A stretch of DNA of 30,276 nucleotides, from IMG/VR virus record IMGVR_UViG_3300010354_000380, positions 1 to 30,276 of that record. One strand, given 5' to 3'. Of this stretch, positions 4,357 to 30,276 are shown piece by piece. The notes beneath the pieces are model-generated. The model made no database searches and was not told the DNA's origin. It was given only the letters and a program-made list of their open reading frames with translations. The stretch comes from a virus. Numbering within the stretch: position 1 is the stretch's first letter; every line of letters begins with the position of its first letter. A program made the translations under genes and the position numbers.

Positions 4357-7300
4357 ATGTATAAGCCTAGTAGAAAAATTTCAACTTTAATTGAATCTCA
4401 ATTACCTAGTTTTATTTCAACAGAGTATGAAAATTTTTCGAAATTTTTAGGGAAGTACTATGAGCATTTAGAGTCTAAAGGTAATGTATTAGATATTATT
4501 AATAATATTACCACATATTTTGATGTTGATTATTACGATAGTAATACATTAACTGAATATACTACATGCACGTCTAGCTTTTCTTCATCGGCATCAAGTA
4601 TTTCTGTACAAGATGCTACATCGTTCCCAGAAGAAAATGGCTATATTAAAATTGATAATGAAATATGTTTTTATGAAAAAAGAACAGACAACGTATTTCA
4701 AAATGTAACTAGAGGAATAAGTGGAACTACAAAATTAGGAGATTTGTATCAAAAATCTAATTTTGTAGCATCTGAATCTGCTTCACATTTTCAAGGGGCA
4801 AAAGTATATAATTTAAGCAATTTATTTTTATATGCGTTAGTAAAGCATTTTGAAGATCAATATTTAAAATCATTTCCTAAAAAATCAATCAAACCACAGA
4901 TTGATAAAAAATTACTATTAAAAAATATAAAGCAATTTTATAGTGCAAAGGGAACTGAGTATTCGATAAAATTTATATTCAATTCTATAGTTTCACAAAC
5001 TTCTGACGACATTCCAGAAATTTTTTATCCTAAGGATCAAACGGTAAAAATTTCCACATCAGATTGGACAAATAACTATTCAATTAGAGTTAAATTGTTA
5101 TCAGGTAATATTAACAATTTAATTGGACAAACAATATCACAAACAGTAGATAATCAATTTGCTTCTGCTACTATTGACAATATATCACCAAAAAATGTAG
5201 CAGGAAAAATATTTTATGAATTAATTTTAGCACCAGAGTCTATTGTTGGCAAATTTGAAGTCTGTTCAAAAACTAAATTAAGAACAAGCTTGTCTACAAG
5301 TACATCTAGTAGAATTAATGTTTTTTCTACGTATGGATGGGATGATTCGGGGTTCTTATTAATTGATGACGAAGTTATTGAATATTCTGATAAAAATATT
5401 ACGCAATTTGTACAAAAATCTAGACAATCTCCAATTTCTCACGCAGAAAATGCGGAAGTATACAGCATAAAGCAAAAAATTGAATCTAATAATGTATCCT
5501 TTTTAATTTTAGGAGTAGCGTATAATTTAAATTTAACTGAAGATATTTTATATTGTTCAAAAAATGATAGTATTCAATTTAAAAATTTCGGAACTCAAAC
5601 CAAAGATACTATTGTCTACAATAAATTAACAGATTCTTTTAGGTGGTTGACTAGTAATTCTTCACCAGTTTTAGAAGAAGCTAATGTTCCTATACAACAG
5701 AAAATATCAAATTTTTCAGTTGACACATCTTCTGTTTTTCAAGATTCTGATTATTATTATATTTGCTCATCAGGAATTCCTTCCCATAGTATTTTAAAGG
5801 CAAATGTTAATATTTTACCAGAAGAGCAAAAAATTCTAAGATTAATTAAAAAAACTCCAGTATCGACAACAGAAATTTACAAAACTCCTTTTAGAGATGT
5901 AGGAATTTTTCTAAATGGAGTTTTGGCATATGGCAATAAAGACGACACATTTATTACCTATGGAAAAATTGTTTCTTCAACAATAATTGATGCTGGAATA
6001 GGATACACCAATCCGCCATATGTTCTAATAGATGGTCAGCCAAATAAAGCAACAGCAACGATTGCTGGTGGTAGACTAGAAAAAATTGAAGTGACAACTA
6101 ACGAGACATTCTCATTTACTCCAACAATCGAAATTGTTGCAGGAAGAAAGGCTACAGCTAGAGCTGTAGTTACTGGAGATACGATTTCTAGTATAAGAGT
6201 TATCAATCAAGGTGAGTATTATTCTGCTCCTCCTAGAGTAGTAATAACCGATTCTACAGGAAAAGGAAAATTTGCAGAATATAAAGCAATTTTAAATGCT
6301 TATGGTCAAGTCATTAGATTTGAACAAATCAATGCAGGAAAATTTTATAGTCAGGGGACAGTAACGGTAACATTACTTGAAGACGCTAGAGGTTCGGAAG
6401 CACAAGCAAAATTAGAATTAAGAAAATGGTATAAAAATAGATATTACATTAATTCGTCATATTTAGACAATTCTAATGGATATTTGTTCCAAAATTATGA
6501 ATCAATTGATTTGGATATTAAAAAATACGGTTATGGATATGTAGCAAATCCGAAAAGATTAAGATATCAACTTTCAGACAATTTACAATCAAATTTAACA
6601 GAAACTACAGTAAAAACACATTCTCCAATTTTAGGATATGCCTATGATGGAAACCCAATATATGGTCCATATGGATATTCTTCTCCACTAGATAACACAT
6701 CGAATATAGTTAGGTTAGAATCTGGTTACACACAAAATGTTTCTAGATCAGAAGGACCTTCGACATCCACATATCCTCTTGGGTATTTTACTGATGATTT
6801 TTCTTGGAATGCCTCAGTAAATGTGGGGAAAACAATTTTAGATAAAAATAATGGAAGATTTTGCGTAACTCCAGAATATCCAGAAGGAACATATGCATAC
6901 TTCATAACAATAAATTCATCAAATCAGCCAGTATTTCCTTATATTATAGGAGAAAATTATTATTCTTTCCCTGTTGAACTGAATTATACAACAAGTATAT
7001 CTCAAAATAATTTACCTTCGAATGCAAAGAAAGTTTTTTCTCCACCAGATGAACTGAATGGTTTAGGTTCGGTTATGGTGGTGAATGATGTTTTACCAGG
7101 AACAATAACTGATGTTAACATAGAAGATTCTATTGATACATTCAAAGTAGGAAATAAAATATACGTAAATAATGAAAATACAGAAGGCGAAAATTTCCAA
7201 GCAGTTATTTCCGAAGTAGAAGGTAAAGAAATTACATCAATACAATCAGTACAAGTAAAATCATTACTGATTAAGACTCAAAATATTGTATACATTTATG

Positions 7301-12145: not shown

Positions 12146-12679
12146 ATGCCAATAAAAAGAACTTTTTCTTCTTGTTATTATGGAACATTAAAAAATAACA
12201 ATCAATTATTGTCATCCATAATTTCTTCAAAAAAATGTGACGATCTTAATGTAATTTTACATAATCAAAAATCCGAACGAGTGCCATCGTTAACAAGTAC
12301 AAATAGCAAGTATATTGGCAAATCTTATTCTTTCAAAATTAGTAACTTAAATTTTAATGTAGAAGATTCATTAAAAACAAAGTCCATAATAACAAATTAT
12401 CATAGCGTATCAAGTTCCAATACAGTATTGAATTCTTTTATTTCAGAATCTTTTCGTTGTTTGGGAACATATTTAGAATTGCCATTATCAGAAGAAGATA
12501 CAATTTTATATGTAAGTAATACAGCCAATTTTCCAGAAAAAGGTGTCTTATTGGTTGGAGATGAATTGGTATCATACGAAAGCAAAAGTTTTGATAGATT
12601 TTCCAAAATAACTAGAGGTTATGACAATTCAAAAATAAAATCCCATCAAGGTGGCGAATATATTAGAACTATTCTATAG
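12146..12679 (+). CDS. Hypothetical structural protein with RG-type beta module (177 aa)
   Basis: This 177-residue protein lies between gp7 and gp8, starting 4 bases after the gp7 stop. Residues 1-100 are Ser/Asn/Lys-rich and unrecognised. Residues about 105-177 form a beta module with the pattern EDTILYVSNTANFPEKG, LLVGDELVSYE, ITRGYD and a final His-x-Gly-Gly-x-x-x-x. The same pattern occurs three times in the gp7 homologue and is common in phage structural proteins. The N-terminus has no signal peptide. Position and shared module point to a virion component of the wedge, perhaps a small adaptor between gp7 and gp8; this is inference. No T4 equivalent is known at this point in the order. 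A tandem late promoter follows its stop directly. Confidence 0.85.
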   Translation: MPIKRTFSSCYYGTLKNNNQLLSSIISSKKCDDLNVILHNQKSERVPSLTSTNSKYIGKSYSFKISNLNFNVEDSLKTKSIITNYHSVSSSNTVLNSFISESFRCLGTYLELPLSEEDTILYVSNTANFPEKGVLLVGDELVSYESKSFDRFSKITRGYDNSKIKSHQGGEYIRTIL

Positions 12680-12683
12680 ACCA

Positions 12684-12697
12684 TATAAATATAAATA
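12684..12697 (+). promoter_or_regulatory. Tandem overlapping T4-type late promoters before gp8
   Basis: Two exact TATAAATA copies overlap by two bases (12684-12691 and 12690-12697). Transcription would start at about 12697 or 12703, leaving a 23-29-base leader with an AAAGAG ribosome-binding site at 12712-12717 before the ATG at 12726. They are the best late-promoter matches inside the wedge block and give gp8 its own late transcript. Confidence 0.8.
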
Positions 12698-12725: not shown

Positions 12726-14621
12726 ATGGCTGCTATAATTTCAGAAAAATTTAGAATTTTTAATGCTCAACAATTTTTAAATTCTTTGGGCGATGATTAT
12801 ATAAATGAAACTAATTCCAGTATAGTTACTGGATCAGGATCTGAACTGTCCAGAATGTATTTTTTTATTGGTAGACCACAAGATTGGGATACAACTCTAG
12901 AAATTTTTAGTAAATCTGCTACAGCATTTACTACTTCTGATACTGTATATATTGGTTCGAATTTAGGTTCAGCATCATTCAAAGCTAATGTAAGAAGAGT
13001 TAATGAAAATAGTTTAGTTTTATATAATGTTATTGGTTCATTTAATGCTTCTTTTGGCACTCAAATTAAAGCTTCAAATGGAACTTCAGATACTGGAGCG
13101 ACAGCTTTAACAGGAGTTTACAGATATTCCGATGAAAATGTTCCTGTAACTCCAGCTGATAGCCAGCAAGAAAAATTTAATTCTTATAGTGATTTGATAG
13201 CAGCAAAAAGAATCACTTCAAAATATTGCAGAACAGTAATTACAAGATATAACTGGAATTTGATCACAAATCCAAAATTTGATATGTGGAAGCCAGATTA
13301 TCTGGAGTCATATAGTGGGTTGCAAGTTGGAAAATCTACTGCAACATCAGCTTCTTCATTTTATGATTCGAAGTACTATGTTGTCAATTCAAATTATGAA
13401 GTATTTAAATGCTTATACAATGGCGAAAATGAAGCAAACCCAACTGGAAGAAATGCAACATACGAGCCTCTAACTACTCCAGCTAGTGGTCAGGGAAGTT
13501 ATGATTCATCAAGAAAAATATTCACAGAACCATCTGGAACTGCTGAATATATTTGGAAATATATGTATACAATTCCAACTGATGATGTATTAAAGTTTCT
13601 ATCAACTGATTTTATTCCAATTGTAGAATCCACCAATGCTTCTAGAACATCGGTTGTTTCTTCTGCTGTGGATGGTTCTATTGATGTAGTCTTGACGAGA
13701 GATGATGGATCTGGTCTTTCTGACGGAACCCGTTATGCTCCTATCGTTGGAGATGGAACTGCTGGGGTGGTTCAAATTACAATTTCCTCAGGAAAAATTA
13801 CTAAAGCAGTAATACACAACCCAGGAAGAAATTATACATATGGATATGTTCCATTAGTGACTGGAAGTGGCTCTGGATCTTCTGCAATTGGTCTATGGGG
13901 AAGTGTAAATATTACCGATCCAAACAATCCTACATTTAGTTCAAGTGTAACTGTCGCTGCAAACGCTACTGGAAGTCTAGAACCTGTTATTTCACCACAA
14001 GGTGGTCATGGTTCAAATCCAGAACAAGAACTAAATGGTAAGAGAATCATGATTAATGTGAGATTGACATCAACTGAATTTACAAGTGGAGAAACTACAA
14101 AAGATTTCCCAGTTGATAACGATTTCAGAAGAATTGGAATTATCAAAGATCCAATGAATTTTGGAACTACTACATTATCAACTGCATCTACATTAAATGG
14201 TTTATATGCTGTAAAAATTCAAGGAGCAACTGGCAATTATCAGGTAGATGAAATCATTGAACAAACAAATAATGGTAATAAATCTTACGGTAGAGTTGTT
14301 TCTTGGGTACTAGATTCGAATAGTACAACCGCAGGAGTGTTAAAGTATATTCAAATTCCAGATGAGCACAATTTCCAATATAAAGTAAGATCATTTGAAT
14401 CTAATGCAAATGCTATTACTGGAAAGTCTTCTTTAACTTCGGGAACAATTAACACTGGTCTTGCTGATAATACAGTTCTACTTGGCTGTACATTTGTTGA
14501 TGGTATGGCTAATCCAGAGATTAAAAGAAACTCTGGAGAAATCATATACATAGAGAATAGAAAGAAAATAACAAGATCTAACGATCAAATCGAAGATATT
14601 AAATTAGTAATTGAATTTTGA
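12726..14621 (+). CDS. 8: Baseplate wedge subunit gp8, enlarged (631 aa)
   Basis: This is gp8, a dimeric baseplate wedge protein that bridges gp7 and gp10 in T4. It is nearly twice the T4 length (334 aa). Conserved blocks run colinearly with T4 gp8 as I remember it: EKFRIFNAQQFLNSLG (residues 7-22), FFIGRPQDWD (46-55), the GTAEYIWKYMYTIP block (271-284), NDFRRIGIIKDPMNFG (465-480) and the terminal NSGEIIYIENRKKIT with DQIEDIKLVIEF (602-631). The extra length is beta modules between blocks. An SGA-type module lies at about 75-120, and a GY-type repeat at 349-392 (VIHNPGRNYTYGYVPLVTG). Both kinds also occur in the gp7 homologue. The start has an AAAGAG site and a tandem late promoter upstream. 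The next gene starts 35 bases after the stop. Confidence 0.93.
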   Translation: MAAIISEKFRIFNAQQFLNSLGDDYINETNSSIVTGSGSELSRMYFFIGRPQDWDTTLEIFSKSATAFTTSDTVYIGSNLGSASFKANVRRVNENSLVLYNVIGSFNASFGTQIKASNGTSDTGATALTGVYRYSDENVPVTPADSQQEKFNSYSDLIAAKRITSKYCRTVITRYNWNLITNPKFDMWKPDYLESYSGLQVGKSTATSASSFYDSKYYVVNSNYEVFKCLYNGENEANPTGRNATYEPLTTPASGQGSYDSSRKIFTEPSGTAEYIWKYMYTIPTDDVLKFLSTDFIPIVESTNASRTSVVSSAVDGSIDVVLTRDDGSGLSDGTRYAPIVGDGTAGVVQITISSGKITKAVIHNPGRNYTYGYVPLVTGSGSGSSAIGLWGSVNITDPNNPTFSSSVTVAANATGSLEPVISPQGGHGSNPEQELNGKRIMINVRLTSTEFTSGETTKDFPVDNDFRRIGIIKDPMNFGTTTLSTASTLNGLYAVKIQGATGNYQVDEIIEQTNNGNKSYGRVVSWVLDSNSTTAGVLKYIQIPDEHNFQYKVRSFESNANAITGKSSLTSGTINTGLADNTVLLGCTFVDGMANPEIKRNSGEIIYIENRKKITRSNDQIEDIKLVIEF

Positions 14622-23202: not shown

Positions 23203-24177
23203 ATGGACTGTTTTGTAAAATTTGCTTCTGAAAGAGGAGGTACAATAGCTCCTTTAGTAATTCCACATAAAGATTTATCTGGACCTGCTTTAACTAATCC
23301 TTCTGTTTTGGTTTTGCAGGATAAAATTTATGTAAATTTAAGAAATATTAACTACACATTATATCATTCCGAAATAAAAAAATTTGAGCATATTTGGGGT
23401 CCTCTGGTTTATATACATCCAGAGAATGAAGTAAAATTAAAAACAACTAATATTATTTGCGAATTAAATGATGATCTTAGTATAAAAAATTATGCCACCA
23501 TTGATACTTCGTTATTAGATAAACCACCACTATGGGAATTTATCGGATTAGAAGATGGTAGATTAATTAATTGGAATAATACTCTTTACTTGTGTGGAGT
23601 TCGTAGAGATACTACAACTAATGGCGAAGGGAGAATGGAATTATCTGAAATAACATTTGATGGAAAAGAAGCAAAAGAAATTTCTAGATTTAGAATACCA
23701 ACCCCAGGAAATAAAGAATCTTATTGTGAAAAAAATTGGATGCCAATTTTAGATACAGAATATCATTATGTAAAATGGACAAATCCAACTGAAATTGTAA
23801 AGGTAGATAAAGATAACAGTACTTGCGAAACTGTTTTGCATAAAAATTATATTCCAGGAATGAGAGACTGGAGGGGAAGTTCTCAGGTAGTTAAGTGGAA
23901 AAATAATTATATCTGTTTAATTCATGAAACAGATTTGTTTAGAAGTGAGTGTGGTAGAAAAGATGCTACTTATAGACATAGATTTATAGTTTGGGATTCT
24001 GAGTGGAATATAATTAAATATTCAAAGTCATTTTCATTCATGAATGGAGAAATAGAATTTTGTTGTGGCATGGATAAATTAAACAATGATTTTTTAATCA
24101 CATTTGGATATCAAGATAATGCAGCTTATATTTTAAAAGTTTCGGAGAACATAGTTGAGGATTTTATCAATGAATAA
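23203..24177 (+). CDS. GH130-like five-bladed-propeller glycosidase or phosphorylase (324 aa)
   Basis: The 324 residues show the repeated blade pattern of the GH43/GH130 beta-propeller fold. Key pieces are an N-terminal NPSVLVLQDKIYVNLR blade, IGLEDGRLINWNNTLYL (residues 115-131; compare G-x-E-D-x-R of GH130, where the Asp is catalytic), EKNWMPIL, DWRGSSQVVKW (near 221-231), TYRHRFIVWDSEW, and EFCCGMDKLNNDFLITFGYQ with D-N-A-A-Y-I-L-K-V. Known GH130 enzymes phosphorolyse or hydrolyse beta-mannosides. The substrate here is unknown, and it may be a non-catalytic glycan binder. No signal peptide is present, so it acts in the infected cell or in the virion. The start is the ATG at 23203, 10 bases after the previous stop, without a clear Shine-Dalgarno sequence. 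Its last 8 bases overlap the methyltransferase gene, so the two proteins probably act together. Confidence 0.75.
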   Translation: MDCFVKFASERGGTIAPLVIPHKDLSGPALTNPSVLVLQDKIYVNLRNINYTLYHSEIKKFEHIWGPLVYIHPENEVKLKTTNIICELNDDLSIKNYATIDTSLLDKPPLWEFIGLEDGRLINWNNTLYLCGVRRDTTTNGEGRMELSEITFDGKEAKEISRFRIPTPGNKESYCEKNWMPILDTEYHYVKWTNPTEIVKVDKDNSTCETVLHKNYIPGMRDWRGSSQVVKWKNNYICLIHETDLFRSECGRKDATYRHRFIVWDSEWNIIKYSKSFSFMNGEIEFCCGMDKLNNDFLITFGYQDNAAYILKVSENIVEDFINE

Positions 24178-25417
24178 TACGCCAATAGTAAATTTTGCTT
24201 TCGATACAGAAAATCCAATAGTTAATTATGATTGTGGATATTGGTATGAAGTACAAGGGCATTATGCTCCAGCTTTAACTTATTATTTAAGAGCAGCTGA
24301 AAGAACAGAAGATATTAATTTTTCTTATATCTGTTTAATAAGAGGGTTTTATGCGTATGAAAAGCAAGGAAATAGAGATGTTACTGCAAAAAGTTTGCTA
24401 TATCAAGCATTATGTATTTTACCAAAAAGACCAGAAGCTTATTTTATATTAAGTAAATATTACGAAGGTAAAGGAGAATGGATGAATGCATATTCTTTTG
24501 CTTGCTTAGGATTGGAATGCAGTGATTTTTCCAACACTTCAGGATACTCAGTTCCAGAATATCCTGGGATTCATGGGTTAATATTTCAAAAAGCTATTTC
24601 TGCTTATTGGTGGGGTAAAGGAGAAGAAACTCGAAAGTTACTTCAAATTTTAGTAAATGATTATTGGAATGTATTGGATGATAATTATAAAACGTCTATA
24701 GAAAATAATATTGTAAACTTAGGTGTCGGTCCAAAAGAAGTAGCATACGTTCAATACGACAAAACAAAATTAGAAAAATATAAATTTAAATTTGACGGAA
24801 TAGAAAATATAGAGTCAAATCATTCACAAACTTATCAAGATATGTTTGTTCTTTCTGTTTTTAATGGAAAGCAAAATGGAACGTATTTAGAAGTTGGTGG
24901 TGGTGATCCATTCTGGGGAAATAATACTGCATTATTAGAAAAAAATTATAACTGGTCTGGCGTATCAATAGAAATTAGCAAAGATTTGTCTGATAATCAC
25001 ACAAAATATAGAAATCATAAAATATTAAATGAAGATGCTACAAAAATTAATTATAAAGAATTGCTACGAGAAAATTTTGATTCAAATATAATTGATTATT
25101 TGCAATTAGATTGTGATCCAGCAAAAACCACTTTTGATATTTTACTTTCTATTCCATTTGAAGAATATAAATTTGGAGTTATTACATACGAGCATGATTA
25201 TAGTATAGATGTGTCTAGATCATATAGAGAAAAATCAAGAAGATATTTATCTTTATTGGGATATGAATTATTAGTTAATGATGTTGGTCCAGTTGATTGG
25301 TTTAGTTTTGAAGATTGGTGGGTACATCCAGATTTGGTAGATAAAGATAGAATACAATTAATGAAAAATAAAATAGATAAAATAAATCAAGTAGAAAATT
25401 ATTTTTTAAATAAGTAA
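24170..25417 (+). CDS. TPR plus FkbM-type SAM methyltransferase fusion (415 aa)
   Basis: The N-terminal half (residues about 10-190) is helical with TPR-like repeats: CGYWYEVQGHYAPALTYYLR, KSLLYQALCILPKRPEAYFI, LSKYYEGKGEWMNAYSFA. The C-terminal half is a Rossmann methyltransferase of the FkbM (Methyltransf_21) type. SQTYQDMFVL leads in. Motif I is YLEVGGGDPFWGNNTALLEK (239-258), followed by GVSIEISKDL, LNEDATKINY, IIDYLQLDCDP and a C-terminal YLSLLGYELLVNDVGPVDWF strand pair. FkbM enzymes methylate sugars and other small acceptors. I choose the ATG at 24170 over the upstream TTG at 24155 because GAGG at 24157-24160 sits 9 bases before it. The gene overlaps the glycosidase by 8 bases. Together they suggest processing and capping of a glycan, either on the virion or at the host surface; this is inferred. 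Confidence 0.8.
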   Translation: MNNTPIVNFAFDTENPIVNYDCGYWYEVQGHYAPALTYYLRAAERTEDINFSYICLIRGFYAYEKQGNRDVTAKSLLYQALCILPKRPEAYFILSKYYEGKGEWMNAYSFACLGLECSDFSNTSGYSVPEYPGIHGLIFQKAISAYWWGKGEETRKLLQILVNDYWNVLDDNYKTSIENNIVNLGVGPKEVAYVQYDKTKLEKYKFKFDGIENIESNHSQTYQDMFVLSVFNGKQNGTYLEVGGGDPFWGNNTALLEKNYNWSGVSIEISKDLSDNHTKYRNHKILNEDATKINYKELLRENFDSNIIDYLQLDCDPAKTTFDILLSIPFEEYKFGVITYEHDYSIDVSRSYREKSRRYLSLLGYELLVNDVGPVDWFSFEDWWVHPDLVDKDRIQLMKNKIDKINQVENYFLNK

Positions 25418-25418
25418 A

Positions 25419-25589
25419 ATGGATTTAATTAAAACTAAAGAAAATTTTAAAACACAGCTTACAAATGTAAAAGAAAAAATTGTAGATCTACAAGAACAAT
25501 TAGAACAAGCTAAAGAATATAAACTCAAGTTAATTGGAGGATTGGAAACATTAGAATTGTTAGAAAAAGAATCTGAGTTAATAGAATAA
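25419..25589 (+). CDS. Small coiled-coil protein (56 aa)
   Basis: This is a 56-residue protein beginning MDLIKTKENFKTQLTNVKEK, then IVDLQEQLEQAKEYKLKLIG and ending in GLETLELLEKESELIE. Leu, Ile and Val fall on regular heptad positions through most of the length, so it should be an almost continuous helix forming a coiled coil. The ATG at 25419 comes one base after the methyltransferase stop. There is no separate strong ribosome-binding site, so translation is probably coupled. The gene closes the operon: a terminator hairpin follows 16 bases after its stop. Function is unknown; oligomerisation or chaperoning of a neighbouring fibre protein would suit a short coiled coil. Confidence 0.8.
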   Translation: MDLIKTKENFKTQLTNVKEKIVDLQEQLEQAKEYKLKLIGGLETLELLEKESELIE

Positions 25590-25605: not shown

Positions 25606-25641
25606 AAACCCCTTCTTATAAATAGATAAGAAGGGGTTTTT
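25606..25641 (+). terminator. Rho-independent terminator with 13-bp stem
   Basis: AAACCCCTTCTTA (25606-25618) pairs perfectly with TAAGAAGGGGTTT (25627-25639) across an 8-base loop, and five T (25637-25641) follow the GGGG. It ends the operon that closes with the 56-aa coiled-coil gene. The loop and inner stem contain the late promoter of the next operon, and the right arm contains its ribosome-binding site. Confidence 0.88.
25617..25624 (+). promoter_or_regulatory. T4-type late promoter inside the terminator loop
   Basis: An exact TATAAATA lies at 25617-25624. By T4 spacing, RNA would start near 25630, inside the right arm of the terminator stem. The new transcript therefore lacks the left arm, cannot form the hairpin, and begins with AAGGGG (25631-25636), which lies 10 bases before the ATG at 25647 and can serve as the ribosome-binding site. 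Confidence 0.8.
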
Positions 25642-25646
25642 CAGCT

Positions 25647-25985
25647 ATGGCTGCAGTCAGAATTAATTTACAATTAGATCAAGGAGCAGATTTTTCTGCA
25701 ATTTTTAATTTAACAGATGGTGTTAAATTATTAGATTTAAATGATTATGACGTAGAAGCTTATTTTGGATATAATTATTCTACGGATAATAAAATTAGTT
25801 TTGACGTGAATATTTTAGATGCTGTAAATGGAAAGGTAGAATTACTTTTGACTTCAACTCAAACATCACAATTAAAATTACCTAGATATGTTTATGACAT
25901 TGTGGTGACATCTTCCGAAGAACTTGGAAATAAAAAAATTAGAATCGTAGAAGGCATTTTAGAAGTTTCCCCTGGAGTATCCTGA
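25647..25985 (+). CDS. Small beta-sandwich-like fibre-associated protein (112 aa)
   Basis: This 112-residue protein shows the pattern LQLDQGADFSAIFNLTDG, LLDLNDYDVEAYFGYN, GKVELLLTSTQTSQLKLP, RYVYDIVVTSSEEL, RIVEGILEVSPGVS. This alternation (GADF, LDL..Y, L[LS]T..QT, YVYDIV, EG.LEV.PGV) is a known small phage beta-domain type usually encoded just before tail fibres, seemingly of Ig-like or fibre-base type. I know no assigned function. It begins 10 bases after AAGGGG in the terminator arm. Its stop overlaps the start of the collagen-like gene (TGATG), so the two are translationally coupled. A likely role is a base or attachment piece for the fibre; this is inferred. Confidence 0.85.
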   Translation: MAAVRINLQLDQGADFSAIFNLTDGVKLLDLNDYDVEAYFGYNYSTDNKISFDVNILDAVNGKVELLLTSTQTSQLKLPRYVYDIVVTSSEELGNKKIRIVEGILEVSPGVS

Positions 25986-28900
25986 TGGCAGAATATACAG
26001 TTCCTGTAAGCACTGGTACAAGTGAAACAACCGCTTCAACTGGAGGTGATGTTCAATATAATGCGACTGTAGCTGGAACGGGAGAAGCAACAACAGGTAC
26101 AGTTTTACAAGGAACTCAAGGTATACAAGGTACTCAAGGTATACAAGGAACTCAAGGACTTGATGGATTACAGGGATTATCTGGTTCTCAGGGTTTAATA
26201 GGATTAACAGGTGTCCAAGGAAGTCAGGGTACTCAAGGATTTAAAGGGAATACTGGCAATCAAGGAACACAAGGAACAGACGGTGCTCAAGGAATTAGGG
26301 GTACGGTAGGATCTCAGGGAACAGACGGAATACAAGGTCAAAGAGGATTAGTTGGAACTCCTGGATCGCAAGGTAGTCAAGGTATTCAGGGTAGACAAGG
26401 AACTCAAGGTTTTAGGGGATCTCAAGGACTTAATGGATTACAAGGTAACCAAGGAGTTCAAGGAAGACAAGGAACTCAAGGGATTCAAGGAGAACGTGGA
26501 TTAATTGGATTTAAAGGTGATACTGGTTCACAAGGTTCTCAAGGTATTCAAGGTGAACTAGGTATACAAGGACCTTATGGATTACAAGGATTAACTGGAT
26601 CTGGTGCTCAAGGTTCTCAAGGTACTGATGGTATTCAAGGATTTTATGGATCACAAGGAATACAAGGTGGTATAGGAATCCAAGGAGAACGTGGAGTACA
26701 AGGTAATAGAGGATTTATAGGAGATGTTGGATCCCAAGGAATTCAAGGACAAAAAGGATTAGTTGGAGAGCCAGGAACTCAAGGATTACAAGGAGTTAGA
26801 GGTCCAGTTGGTTCTGGTGGATTACAAGGAACTCAAGGAATACAAGGTCAACGAGGTATTGGATTACAGGGATCTCAAGGTATTCAAGGTGATCTTGGAA
26901 TACAAGGATTCAAAGGCTCCCAAGGAATACAAGGAGAAAGGGGGCTTAAAGGTGATACTGGTACACAAGGAACTACTGGTATTCAAGGATTTTATGGGAC
27001 ACAAGGATCAACTGGTGCTGGTGCTCAAGGTTCTCAAGGTACTGATGGTATTCAAGGACCCGATGGATTACAGGGAGCACAAGGACAAAGAGGTTTACAA
27101 GGTTTACAGGGAATTCAAGGAGCACAAGGAAATCAAGGAACAACTGGACAATCTGGAGCCGATGGCTCTCAAGGAGCGAGAGGTTTTACTGGCACAACAG
27201 GGTCTCAAGGATCTCAAGGTGTTCAAGGAAATTTAGGAAACCAAGGAATCCAAGGTGTTAAAGGAGCATTAGGAGAACAGGGTATCCAAGGATTTACTGG
27301 CACCCAAGGGCTTACTGGTATCCAAGGTAGACAAGGAATTCAAGGAGAAAAAGGATTTACTGGAAATACTGGTTCTCAAGGTTCTTCTGGTATTCAAGGA
27401 CTTACAGGATCTCAAGGTTCCAGAGGATTGCAAGGAATTGAGGGTCAAGGTGCTCAAGGAATTCAAGGAGCCAAAGGAAATGTAGGTAATGATGGAATAC
27501 AAGGTATTCAAGGACAAAGGGGACTTATTGGAAGTCCTGGTCCTCAAGGATTAACTGGAATACAAGGTGATTTAGGAATACAAGGACCTAGAGGACCACA
27601 AGGACTTCAAGGAATTATTGGTATACAAGGCAATCAGGGAGTTCAAGGTAGACAAGGAATTCAAGGTGAAAAGGGAATTCAAGGTGATTATGGTATTCAA
27701 GGAGCACAGGGAATCCAAGGTCCACAAGGATCTCAAGGAACTACAGGAATTCAAGGTAGACAAGGAACTCAAGGTTCTCAAGGTCTACATGGACAATTTG
27801 CTGGACAAGGCATTCAAGGACCTCAAGGACCTCAAGGTAACGAAGGAAGACAGGGAATTCAAGGAACTCAAGGTTTAAGAGGAATTCAAGGAGAAAGAGG
27901 ATTTCAAGGTACTCAAGGAATTCAAGGTAGACAAGGAATTCAAGGAACCAGGGGTATTCAGGGAGAAGAAGGGCTACAAGGAATTCAAGGTTCTCAAGGA
28001 GTTCAGGGAGTTCAAGGGCGCCAAGGAATTCAAGGCGAAAGAGGGATTCAAGGAAATCAAGGAACTCAAGGTATTCAAGGAAGACAAGGACCACAAGGAA
28101 CTACAGGTATTCAAGGAAATCTTGGAAATCAAGGTATTCAAGGAAATCAAGGACCTCAAGGTACTATTGGTATCCAAGGACCTTATGGTGTACAAGGAGC
28201 AACTGGAAGTTTTGGTGGAGCAACATTTGATTATACTTTTTCATCAGATATTGAAAATACAAATCCAGGTTCAGGAAAATTAAAATTAAATTCAGTAAGC
28301 TTTAGTCAAAGCACCTTATTGTATATCAGTCAATTTGATGATCAATCAAATTCTAATTATAATTTCTTGCTAACTATTGATGATTCAAGTTCTTCTATTC
28401 GTGGTCATTTCACAATTAGACCAAAATCTGATTCTACGAAGTTTGCAATTTTTGCTATAACTAATGATATTTCATATAATTCAGTTGATAATTATTTTGC
28501 AGTTCCAATATCTTACTTATCTGGAGATAATTCATATTTAAATAATGAAGATGTTTTAATTACTTTTGCAAGAACTGGAGATATAGGTCCAAGTGGACCG
28601 CAAGGATCCCAAGGTACTACTGGTATTCAAGGACCTTATGGTGTACAAGGATCAATTGGCGCTGGCATTCAAGGTCCTCAAGGTCTTCAAGGTACAGATG
28701 GTATTCAAGGAAGACAAGGAGTACAAGGATCTAGAGGATTTACAGGAAATACTGGTATTCAAGGAATTCAAGGAGATCTTGGAATACAAGGATTTTATGG
28801 TAATCAAGGAACTCAAGGAATTCAAGGTGTTCAAGGACCTCAAGGTACATATGGAACCCAAGGATTTCAAGGTATTCAAGGACTTCAAGGTAGACAAGGA

Positions 28901-30276
28901 ATACAAGGAGAACAAGGTATTCAAGGCAACCAAGGTACTCAAGGACTAAGAGGATTTACTGGAGACATTGGACCACAAGGTATTATTGGACTAACTGGTA
29001 TTCAAGGTAATACTGGTATTCAAGGCAATCAAGGTACTCAGGGTGTTCAAGGATTTCACGGAATAATTGGTAGCATTTCTTTGGATGTATCTAGTTATGG
29101 AGTTTCTGGATATCTATTACAAGGATCAAATACGTTAAATCCAAAAATAATTTTAGCAAGAGGAATTACTTATTACATTAATGTAAATGCTAGTGGTCAT
29201 CCTTTTTGGATAAAAACAACAAAAACTAATGGAACTGACAATGCATATACTGAAGGAATTTTAAACAATGGCGAAGATTCTGGATTAATTACTTTCCAAG
29301 TACCTCAAACTGCTCCTGATATTTTATATTATAACTGTCAATTCCATTCATCTATGAGTGGTACTATAGAAATCAATGATTTAGGAGAATTAGGACCTCA
29401 AGGAGCACAAGGTATCCAAGGCATTCAGGGTCTTCAAGGTGTTCAAGGAGAAAGAGGTATACAAGGCGCTCAAGGCATTCAAGGTAATCAAGGAACTCAA
29501 GGAATAAGAGGACAGCAAGGAATTCAAGGAGAGTTTGGTACACAAGGATCTCAAGGAAGACAAGGCATACAAGGAGTCCAAGGAGAAAAAGGTATTCAAG
29601 GTAATACTGGTATACAAGGTAATGAGGGATTACAAGGAGTCCAAGGAGAATCTATTCAAGGTATCCAAGGATTACAGGGATCACAAGGAACTACAGGTAT
29701 TCAAGGCGCACAAGGTTTTGTTGGTATTCAAGGTTTTGATGGTGCTCAAGGACTTCAAGGAAATCCTGGAATTCAAGGTCTTCAAGGAGAAGAAGGAAGA
29801 GGTCTTAATATATTAGGTTCTGTTGATGGAGTTTCTGAATTACCTGGATATCCAATAACATATATGGGATTAATTGGAGATGCATATATTGTTAGTGATA
29901 GTGGATCTTTGTTTATTTGGAATGGAAGTTTTTGGGAAGATGTTGGTCAAATTGTTGGTCCACCTGGAGATATTGGACCACAAGGTATACAAGGAGGACA
30001 AGGAATAAGTGGTGCATTCGTAGGTCAAGGTGTTCAAGGTCCAAGAGGATTTCAAGGAATTCAAGGTCTACAAGGAAATCAAGGTCTTCATGGAGAGTTT
30101 GCAGGACAAGGTGTTCAAGGACCTCAAGGTGTACAAGGTAATATAGGAATACAAGGTAGTACTGGATCTCAAGGATCTCAAGGATTGCAAGGAGCACAAG
30201 GAACTCAAGGAATACAAGGACAAATTGGTACACAAGGTCTTGATGGATTATTTGCTGGTCAAGGGGCGCAAGGTCC
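25985..30276 (+). CDS. Collagen-like fibre protein with three globular inserts (partial, over 1430 aa)
   Basis: The ATG at 25985 overlaps the previous stop by one base. I checked the frame at intervals; it stays open to the window end, so the 3' end is missing. After a Ser/Thr/Gly-rich head (residues 1-42) come Gly-X-Y collagen repeats: 43-739, 866-1029, 1137-1271 and 1326 onward. Gln dominates the Y position (GIQGTQG, GPQGLQG) and Pro is rare, so stability does not rest on hydroxyproline. Globular insert 1 (740-865) begins GATFDYTFSSDIENTNPGSG, a known phage module. Insert 2 (1030-1136) is cupredoxin-like with His1072, Cys1118, His1121 and Met1124. Insert 3 (1272-1325) has GDAYIVSDSGSLFIWNGSFW, a small module common in phage fibres. 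Trimeric collagen-like rods are typical of fibres or decorations that contact the host. Internal near-identical repeats invite recombination. Confidence 0.88.
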   Translation, partial: MAEYTVPVSTGTSETTASTGGDVQYNATVAGTGEATTGTVLQGTQGIQGTQGIQGTQGLDGLQGLSGSQGLIGLTGVQGSQGTQGFKGNTGNQGTQGTDGAQGIRGTVGSQGTDGIQGQRGLVGTPGSQGSQGIQGRQGTQGFRGSQGLNGLQGNQGVQGRQGTQGIQGERGLIGFKGDTGSQGSQGIQGELGIQGPYGLQGLTGSGAQGSQGTDGIQGFYGSQGIQGGIGIQGERGVQGNRGFIGDVGSQGIQGQKGLVGEPGTQGLQGVRGPVGSGGLQGTQGIQGQRGIGLQGSQGIQGDLGIQGFKGSQGIQGERGLKGDTGTQGTTGIQGFYGTQGSTGAGAQGSQGTDGIQGPDGLQGAQGQRGLQGLQGIQGAQGNQGTTGQSGADGSQGARGFTGTTGSQGSQGVQGNLGNQGIQGVKGALGEQGIQGFTGTQGLTGIQGRQGIQGEKGFTGNTGSQGSSGIQGLTGSQGSRGLQGIEGQGAQGIQGAKGNVGNDGIQGIQGQRGLIGSPGPQGLTGIQGDLGIQGPRGPQGLQGIIGIQGNQGVQGRQGIQGEKGIQGDYGIQGAQGIQGPQGSQGTTGIQGRQGTQGSQGLHGQFAGQGIQGPQGPQGNEGRQGIQGTQGLRGIQGERGFQGTQGIQGRQGIQGTRGIQGEEGLQGIQGSQGVQGVQGRQGIQGERGIQGNQGTQGIQGRQGPQGTTGIQGNLGNQGIQGNQGPQGTIGIQGPYGVQGATGSFGGATFDYTFSSDIENTNPGSGKLKLNSVSFSQSTLLYISQFDDQSNSNYNFLLTIDDSSSSIRGHFTIRPKSDSTKFAIFAITNDISYNSVDNYFAVPISYLSGDNSYLNNEDVLITFARTGDIGPSGPQGSQGTTGIQGPYGVQGSIGAGIQGPQGLQGTDGIQGRQGVQGSRGFTGNTGIQGIQGDLGIQGFYGNQGTQGIQGVQGPQGTYGTQGFQGIQGLQGRQGIQGEQGIQGNQGTQGLRGFTGDIGPQGIIGLTGIQGNTGIQGNQGTQGVQGFHGIIGSISLDVSSYGVSGYLLQGSNTLNPKIILARGITYYINVNASGHPFWIKTTKTNGTDNAYTEGILNNGEDSGLITFQVPQTAPDILYYNCQFHSSMSGTIEINDLGELGPQGAQGIQGIQGLQGVQGERGIQGAQGIQGNQGTQGIRGQQGIQGEFGTQGSQGRQGIQGVQGEKGIQGNTGIQGNEGLQGVQGESIQGIQGLQGSQGTTGIQGAQGFVGIQGFDGAQGLQGNPGIQGLQGEEGRGLNILGSVDGVSELPGYPITYMGLIGDAYIVSDSGSLFIWNGSFWEDVGQIVGPPGDIGPQGIQGGQGISGAFVGQGVQGPRGFQGIQGLQGNQGLHGEFAGQGVQGPQGVQGNIGIQGSTGSQGSQGLQGAQGTQGIQGQIGTQGLDGLFAGQGAQG
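26111..30276 (+). repeat. Collagen-coding repeat DNA (9-nt period, CAAGG-rich)
   Basis: The DNA consists of 9-nt units in the form GGN NNN CAA, with many exact 12-24-nt matches such as GGAATTCAAGGT or GGTATTCAAGG. It is interrupted at about 28202-28588, 29072-29392 and 29800-29950 by normal coding DNA for globular inserts. The regularity leaves long open frames in other frames and on the - strand, which are not genes. Confidence 0.9.

Follow-up and report, generated by a model that had tools for sequence, protein, structure and literature searches.

The window analysed here, which is the whole of an IMG/VR virus record (30,276 bases) from a marine T4-like bacteriophage, includes a hairpin on the + strand in which the parts of a transcription terminator, a T4-type late promoter and a ribosome-binding site (RBS) are fused directly upstream of a tail fibre assembly-like gene. 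This fused anatomy was confirmed, all the parts named in the original prediction being found in place, and the element probably marks the boundary of a late operon, stopping transcription that arrives from upstream and sparing RNA begun inside the hairpin. The structure consists of a perfect stem with a left arm, AAACCCCTTCTTAT, at nucleotides 25606 to 25619, a loop, AAATAG, at 25620 to 25625, and a right arm, ATAAGAAGGGGTTT, at 25626 to 25639. It is the longest perfect stem of the window and has 14 bp; it had been described as perfect, which it is, and as 13 bp long, which it is not. The late promoter motif TATAAATA (25617 to 25624) extends from the last bases of the left arm into the loop, as had been proposed. 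The right arm includes the Shine-Dalgarno (SD)-like sequence AAGGGG (25631 to 25636), the last G of which is found 10 nt before the ATG at 25647, and the T5 run at 25637 to 25641 would act both as terminator tail and as SD-to-ATG spacer. The late transcription start is predicted at nucleotide 25630 from the sequence and the T4 rule, according to which the late promoter occupies positions −13 to −6 (PMC1524935).

Three U at the start of the T-run are taken up by the outer three A-U pairs of the stem, and therefore the structure is, as a terminator, more aptly described as a stem of 11 bp, CCCCTTCTTAT/ATAAGAAGGGG, followed by U5. Read in this way it has the organization of a rho-independent terminator, a GC-rich stem with a U-run immediately behind it. 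The hairpin was absent from the output of a generic terminator scan, probably because the stem reaches into the U-run, and an Rfam search of the window gave no match. When the window was shuffled 200 times with dinucleotides preserved, 6 shuffles produced a perfect stem of at least 13 bp with a loop of 3 to 8 nt, and no such stem exceeded 13 bp. Spacers with at least four T between the SD sequence and the start codon are otherwise rare (39 of 799 ORFs, and 2 of the 44 that have AAGGG). Two features count against the terminator reading: the U-run is short, five U and then C, and the stem starts 16 nt past the upstream stop codon, a place at which termination can be repressed by ribosomes in E. 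coli, in which a terminator several bp after a gene was reported to be almost fully repressed (PMC4824070).

In the window AAGGGG is the only SD-like stretch between the stem and the start codon. With an assumed anti-SD sequence, the predicted late leader had a duplex energy of −7.6 and the stretch that follows the T-run one of +1.2, in agreement with the earlier claim that AAGGGG is the only good RBS of the gene at 25647. The folding calculations gave AAGGGG an unpaired probability of 0.001 or less in read-through RNA versus 0.40 to 0.95 in RNA starting at 25628, 25630 or 25631, so that in the predicted folds the RBS is paired in the former and free in the latter, as in phage T4 gene e. According to the mechanism that we propose, a polymerase coming from upstream would transcribe both arms, and the hairpin and the U-run would release RNA polymerase. 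Read-through RNA that escaped would have AAGGGG paired in the stem, and the gene at 25647 would be poorly translated from it. The phage late RNA polymerase, assumed to include a gp55-type sigma factor, would start near 25630 from the TATAAATA located inside the hairpin, and the late RNA, devoid of the left arm, would form no hairpin, would not be terminated by it and would have an exposed RBS at its 5′ end.

The element lies between two genes of the + strand. The small upstream gene (phrog_580, 25419 to 25589) ends with its stop codon 16 nt before the stem. The downstream gene (25647 to 25985), which codes for a 112-amino acid L-shaped tail fibre assembly-like protein (phrog_1084/phrog_3304), is followed by a collagen-like tail fibre gene (25985 to 30276) whose start overlaps the previous stop and which runs off the contig. 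The annotatable genes of the window are T4-type structural genes, namely baseplate wedge genes at 2159, 2552 and 12726 and virion protein genes at 12146 and 23004. No PHROG or Pfam family matched the genes at 23203 and 24155; the annotation searches excluded two giant genes at 4357 and 14657. Homologues in named phages, as found with the 25647 gene or its homologue L116, showed about 31 to 47 percent protein identity, and the named relatives are mostly phages of Synechococcus, Prochlorococcus, Pelagibacter and Methylophilales.

The motif TATAAATA is found three times in the window, always on the + strand, while shuffles led to an expectation of 8.5 copies on both strands. All three copies are intergenic, in a region (2159 to 30276) where intergenic DNA accounts for 159 of 28118 bases, and all three precede late genes on the coding strand, as expected of T4-type late promoters. 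The other two copies overlap each other (TATAAATATAAATA, 12684 to 12697, + strand) before the baseplate wedge gene at 12726 and form a double late promoter candidate that has no hairpin. All cyanophages sequenced up to the time of one report have g55 (PMC2984593), and the T4-type late promoters of cyanophages (NATAAATA) resemble the window element in their motif and in their place before late genes (PMC2984593, PMC1524935). On the other hand, late promoters of cyanophages and other T4-like phages lie mostly outside hairpins, whereas that of the window element lies inside one: a terminator-type hairpin was found at only 2 of 210 TATAAATA sites from 11 named T4-like genomes and the window. A general enrichment of hairpins at late promoters was rejected, the mean hairpin energy at 151 sites being hardly lower in register (−1.07) than in the mirror register (−0.92).

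Protein scans and searches, one of them seeded with a protein taken from a pattern hit, gave 95 phrog_1084 loci with usable coordinates; loci with less than 62 nt upstream were dropped, and the comparison set consisted of 71 distinct 60-nt upstream regions. Fifty-three of these have TATAAATA on the coding strand, 13 have a variant (NATAAATA or CTAAATA) and 5 have neither. In 11 of the 71 regions, the window included, TATAAATA is part of a strong hairpin; we refer to these as class A, one member of which, L230, was scored by the script as having no T-run although T7 is visible. Another 13 regions (class B) have an RBS-hiding hairpin with the structure CACAC-TTTCCTTATAAATA...AAAGGAG...GTGTGA-ATG and no T-run, and 29 have TATAAATA and no clear hairpin. 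Not one strong hairpin without TATAAATA was found among the 71 regions, so that relatives keeping the stem without the motif, the case that the original prediction had named as its refutation, did not appear; stem and motif are kept together. The late promoter is thus what is shared at phrog_1084, with two different hairpins built on top of it. The hairpin is lineage-specific, and its conservation in all phrog_1084 orthologues was rejected. Loci L223 to L230, which were found by protein rather than by pattern, all have T6 or T7. The phrog_580 and phrog_1084 genes overlap by 20 to 32 nt in S-CAM1, S-CAM3 and AG-345-P14, and are separated by a gap of 47 to 57 nt, filled by the element, in the window and ten class A loci; the difference may be read as the gain of a boundary.

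Two other arrangements were observed at this gene. The class B hairpins, present in 13 distinct marine relatives (L240, L242, L257, L261, L266 and others), place a T4 gene e-like structure before a tail fibre assembly gene. In 8 distinct upstream regions (L231, L233, L234, L247 and similar ones) TATAAATA ends 5 to 6 nt before the phrog_1084 start codon, and the late mRNA is therefore predicted to be leaderless or nearly so.

Fourteen class A elements, 11 located before phrog_1084 and 3 before the adaptor gene described below, were aligned, representing 10 distinct stems with 12 pairs. Changes were counted on an alignment with trimmed arms (A4); another alignment (A2) had placed the right arm of L226 to L229 wrongly, and that of the gp5-type elements (A3) was inspected only. 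The motif TATAAATA was invariant in all 14 elements, and changes on both sides, compensatory in the right arm, were found at 3 of the 12 stem pairs, in 7 cells. The covariation score was 0.180 versus 0.069 for shuffled alignments, none of 500 reaching the observed value, and it was 0.048 or less when the arms were slid by 1 to 3 columns. Covariation is taken as support rather than proof, since ten related sequences are few and kinship inflates such scores. Conservation in relatives, as judged from the sequences, excludes a coincidence of hairpin and promoter.

A wider scan was carried out with the pattern CCCTTN{0,12}TATAAATAN{0,14}AAGGGNTTTT and, as control, with the same pattern carrying the reversed motif TATTTATA; both scans are conditioned on motif and T-run. 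The forward pattern (CCCTT..TATAAATA..AAGGGNTTTT) was found at 77 loci and the reversed-motif pattern at 46. The gene that follows is gp5, phrog_1084 or a head-tail adaptor at 68 of the 77 forward loci (52, 9 and 7, respectively) versus none of the 46 reversed ones, which precede other genes, many having zinc-finger-like or GIY-YIG-like N-termini as judged by eye. A first, looser pattern was rejected as proof: it was found in 91 stretches versus 112 with the reversed motif, and long stems with a nearby start were equally frequent (20 of 80 versus 20 of 83). By eye, the 17 distinct elements found at the 52 gp5 loci were sorted into five types of stem sequence. Every one of the 17 has its G-run 8 to 10 nt from the ATG, and the late 5′ end predicted by the T4 rule falls 0 to 2 nt before AAGGG. 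Same-strand tRNA genes are located within 600 nt upstream at 20 of the 48 gp5 loci that have at least 300 nt of upstream sequence, the other 4 of the 52 being too short. In the cultured phage Melnitz-3 the element follows tRNA-Leu and precedes the gp5 OB-domain gene; the predictions published for Melnitz comprise 15 late promoters and 6 terminators, and the available text of its description makes no mention of a promoter-terminator fusion (PMC9004378). The head-tail adaptor is the Ad2 gene (phrog_211), and in L417 the element before it directly follows a phrog_580 gene. A similarity search with the window element against named phages returned no close DNA relative (20 records, E values of 0.07 or higher), and one with a gp5-type element and 150 nt of the gene returned six records, four or five of which matched only within gp5.

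The reversed-motif hits include structures of their own. Genes of a family of about 520 to 550 amino acids (L169, L183, L463, L466 and others), the main one among the reversed hits, have GC-clamped hairpins upstream that carry TATTTATA, together with a T-run 10 to 14 nt before the ATG; its one member tested in a PHROG search, L169, had no match. A terminator-like hairpin, TCCCTTTTAYGTRTATATTTATATRTAAAAGGGATTTTTTATG, is found directly before ORFs of about 290 amino acids with zinc-finger-like starts (L458, L462, L485 to L487, L491, L492 and L495). The right arm of this hairpin could be an RBS, and the ORFs are possibly mobile endonuclease genes.

The location of the RBS varies among the relatives. 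Across the window and the 17 distinct gp5 elements the G-run lies 8 to 11 nt from the ATG, and no alternative SD candidate was found outside the hairpin in the window and the scored gp5 types. Among the ten other class A relatives examined, six (L222, L226, L228, L295, L437 and L417) have a second SD-like site past the T-run, with duplex energies of −3.0 to −4.2, and an arm G-run 16 to 21 nt from the ATG; L223, L230 and L416 have the arm RBS only, at 13 to 14 nt, and L438 has it at 12 nt plus a very weak alternative. Thus the hiding of the RBS in read-through RNA, as originally proposed, agrees with the predicted folds of the window and cannot be generalized to these six. The constant core would be terminator plus late promoter, the T-run and a TATAAATA inside the hairpin being common to class A and gp5 elements; RBS hiding fits the window and gp5 and appears to be optional elsewhere. 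Since in class B the RBS part occurs on its own, with no terminator part, the window element joins two functions that are separable.

The original prediction also held that the fibre operon is insulated so that it is expressed only late. Baseplate and virion genes predominate among those annotated upstream (23203 to 25417 is unassigned), and incoming RNA should therefore itself be mostly late. What stands of that proposal is the operon boundary and not the timing, and the element is better read as insulating one late operon from another. A role in timing is more plausible around gp5 in relatives, because tRNAs and small genes are located upstream there.

It is unlikely, in our judgment, that the element is a terminator and late promoter only, in which the hairpin would end the upstream operon, the promoter inside it would save space, AAGGGG would be a mere GC clamp and translation of read-through RNA would be uncontrolled. 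The second SD-like sites and distant arm G-runs of six class A relatives, as well as the retention of the T-run in class A, are what this explanation predicts; the G-run spacing in the window and in 17 of 17 distinct gp5 elements, and their lack of another SD candidate, argue against it. An improbable explanation is that the hairpin is only a switch of the T4 gene e type, hiding the RBS in RNA started upstream and missing from late RNA, with the T-run as a spacer and no termination taking place. The geometry is the same as that of T4 e, the hairpins of the 13 distinct class B relatives hold both TATAAATA and the RBS but lack a T-run, and there are published precedents (PMC3014915; PMC2988022). 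However, the rarity of T-rich SD spacers noted above, and the T6 or T7 of L223 to L230, which were found by protein, are at odds with a spacer role.

Two further explanations appear very improbable. The inverted repeat might act at the DNA level, where a cruciform or a bound protein would make the late promoter easier or harder to open; judging from sequence only, the promoter would be at the loop tip and single-stranded in an extruded cruciform. However, only a role in RNA accounts for the polarity of the T-run, the SD spacing and the orientation of the gene, and most late promoters of T4-like genomes have no hairpin. It is equally improbable that a terminator and a late promoter, both of the ordinary kind, came to overlap by chance because the intergenic gap is short: signals do crowd where intergenic DNA is so scarce, but covariation around an invariant TATAAATA and the difference between forward and reversed patterns at late genes speak against it. 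The self-exempting terminator at a late-operon boundary thus continues to be the reading that we prefer.

RBS hiding by a hairpin that holds a late promoter is established. In T4 gene e the late promoter is in the 5′ strand of the hairpin and the RBS is hidden in upstream RNA, with an effect of about 100-fold; RBS-hiding structures are also listed for T4 soc, 49 and I-TevI (PMC3014915), and further late promoter/RBS hairpins were described for I-TevII, I-TevIII, segB and Aeh1 mobE (PMC2988022). As in T4 e, soc, 49 and I-TevI, the window element has the late promoter in the 5′ strand or loop and the RBS in the 3′ strand, and its predicted late RNA lacks the 5′ strand. The T4 e hairpin, which refolded to −12.3 kcal/mol, has no T-run after the stem, whereas the window hairpin, whose outer arms are GC-rich and which ends in a U-run, should therefore also terminate. 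In the T4 e type it is early or middle transcripts that run into the gene and are poorly translated; the genes annotated upstream of the window element look mainly late. Some relatives of the window element differ from the T4 e type also in having an RBS candidate outside the hairpin.

The promoter-early stem-loops (PeSLs) of Arbiol 2010 and Comeau 2014 reportedly have early promoters and border swapped novel genes, and are said to exist as many similar copies per genome that mediate gene shuffling. They are composite terminator-promoter motifs of T4-like phages (PMC4503421), and the window element resembles them as a composite of a short terminator stem-loop and a promoter between phage genes. 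In PeSLs the promoter is early and adjoins the stem-loop, whereas in the window element a late TATAAATA lies inside it, before core structural genes. The element was found once in 17 of 18 records and twice in the other one, several of these records being fragments; this gives no sign of dispersal, and a mobile repeat was rejected. Searches of the openly licensed literature turned up no account of a terminator hairpin that holds a late promoter. Each piece is known from phage T4, and the combination looks new.

There is about an even chance that such self-exempting terminators represent a distinct class of late-operon boundary in marine T4-like phages, one that would stop and silence upstream RNA and spare RNA started in the loop, is conserved before gp5, tail fibre assembly and head-tail adaptor genes, and would need no regulatory protein beyond the late machinery to divide an operon, in about 50 nt, into two that are insulated from each other. 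If so, a single 36-bp sequence would set operon boundary, start and translation together, and compact phages would obtain insulated late operons without extra proteins. This would explain independent dosage of structural genes inside long same-strand arrays, would show the mechanism of T4 gene e, so far known for lysis and endonuclease genes, to serve core tail and neck genes of marine phages as well, and could provide a small one-way valve for genetic design in laboratory systems.

Elsewhere in the window, a 622-base gap (314 to 935) includes AT-rich tandem repeats of 34 and 67 bases and the palindrome TTAACGTTAATTATTATTAACGTTAA at nucleotides 542 to 794, perhaps a replication or regulatory region.
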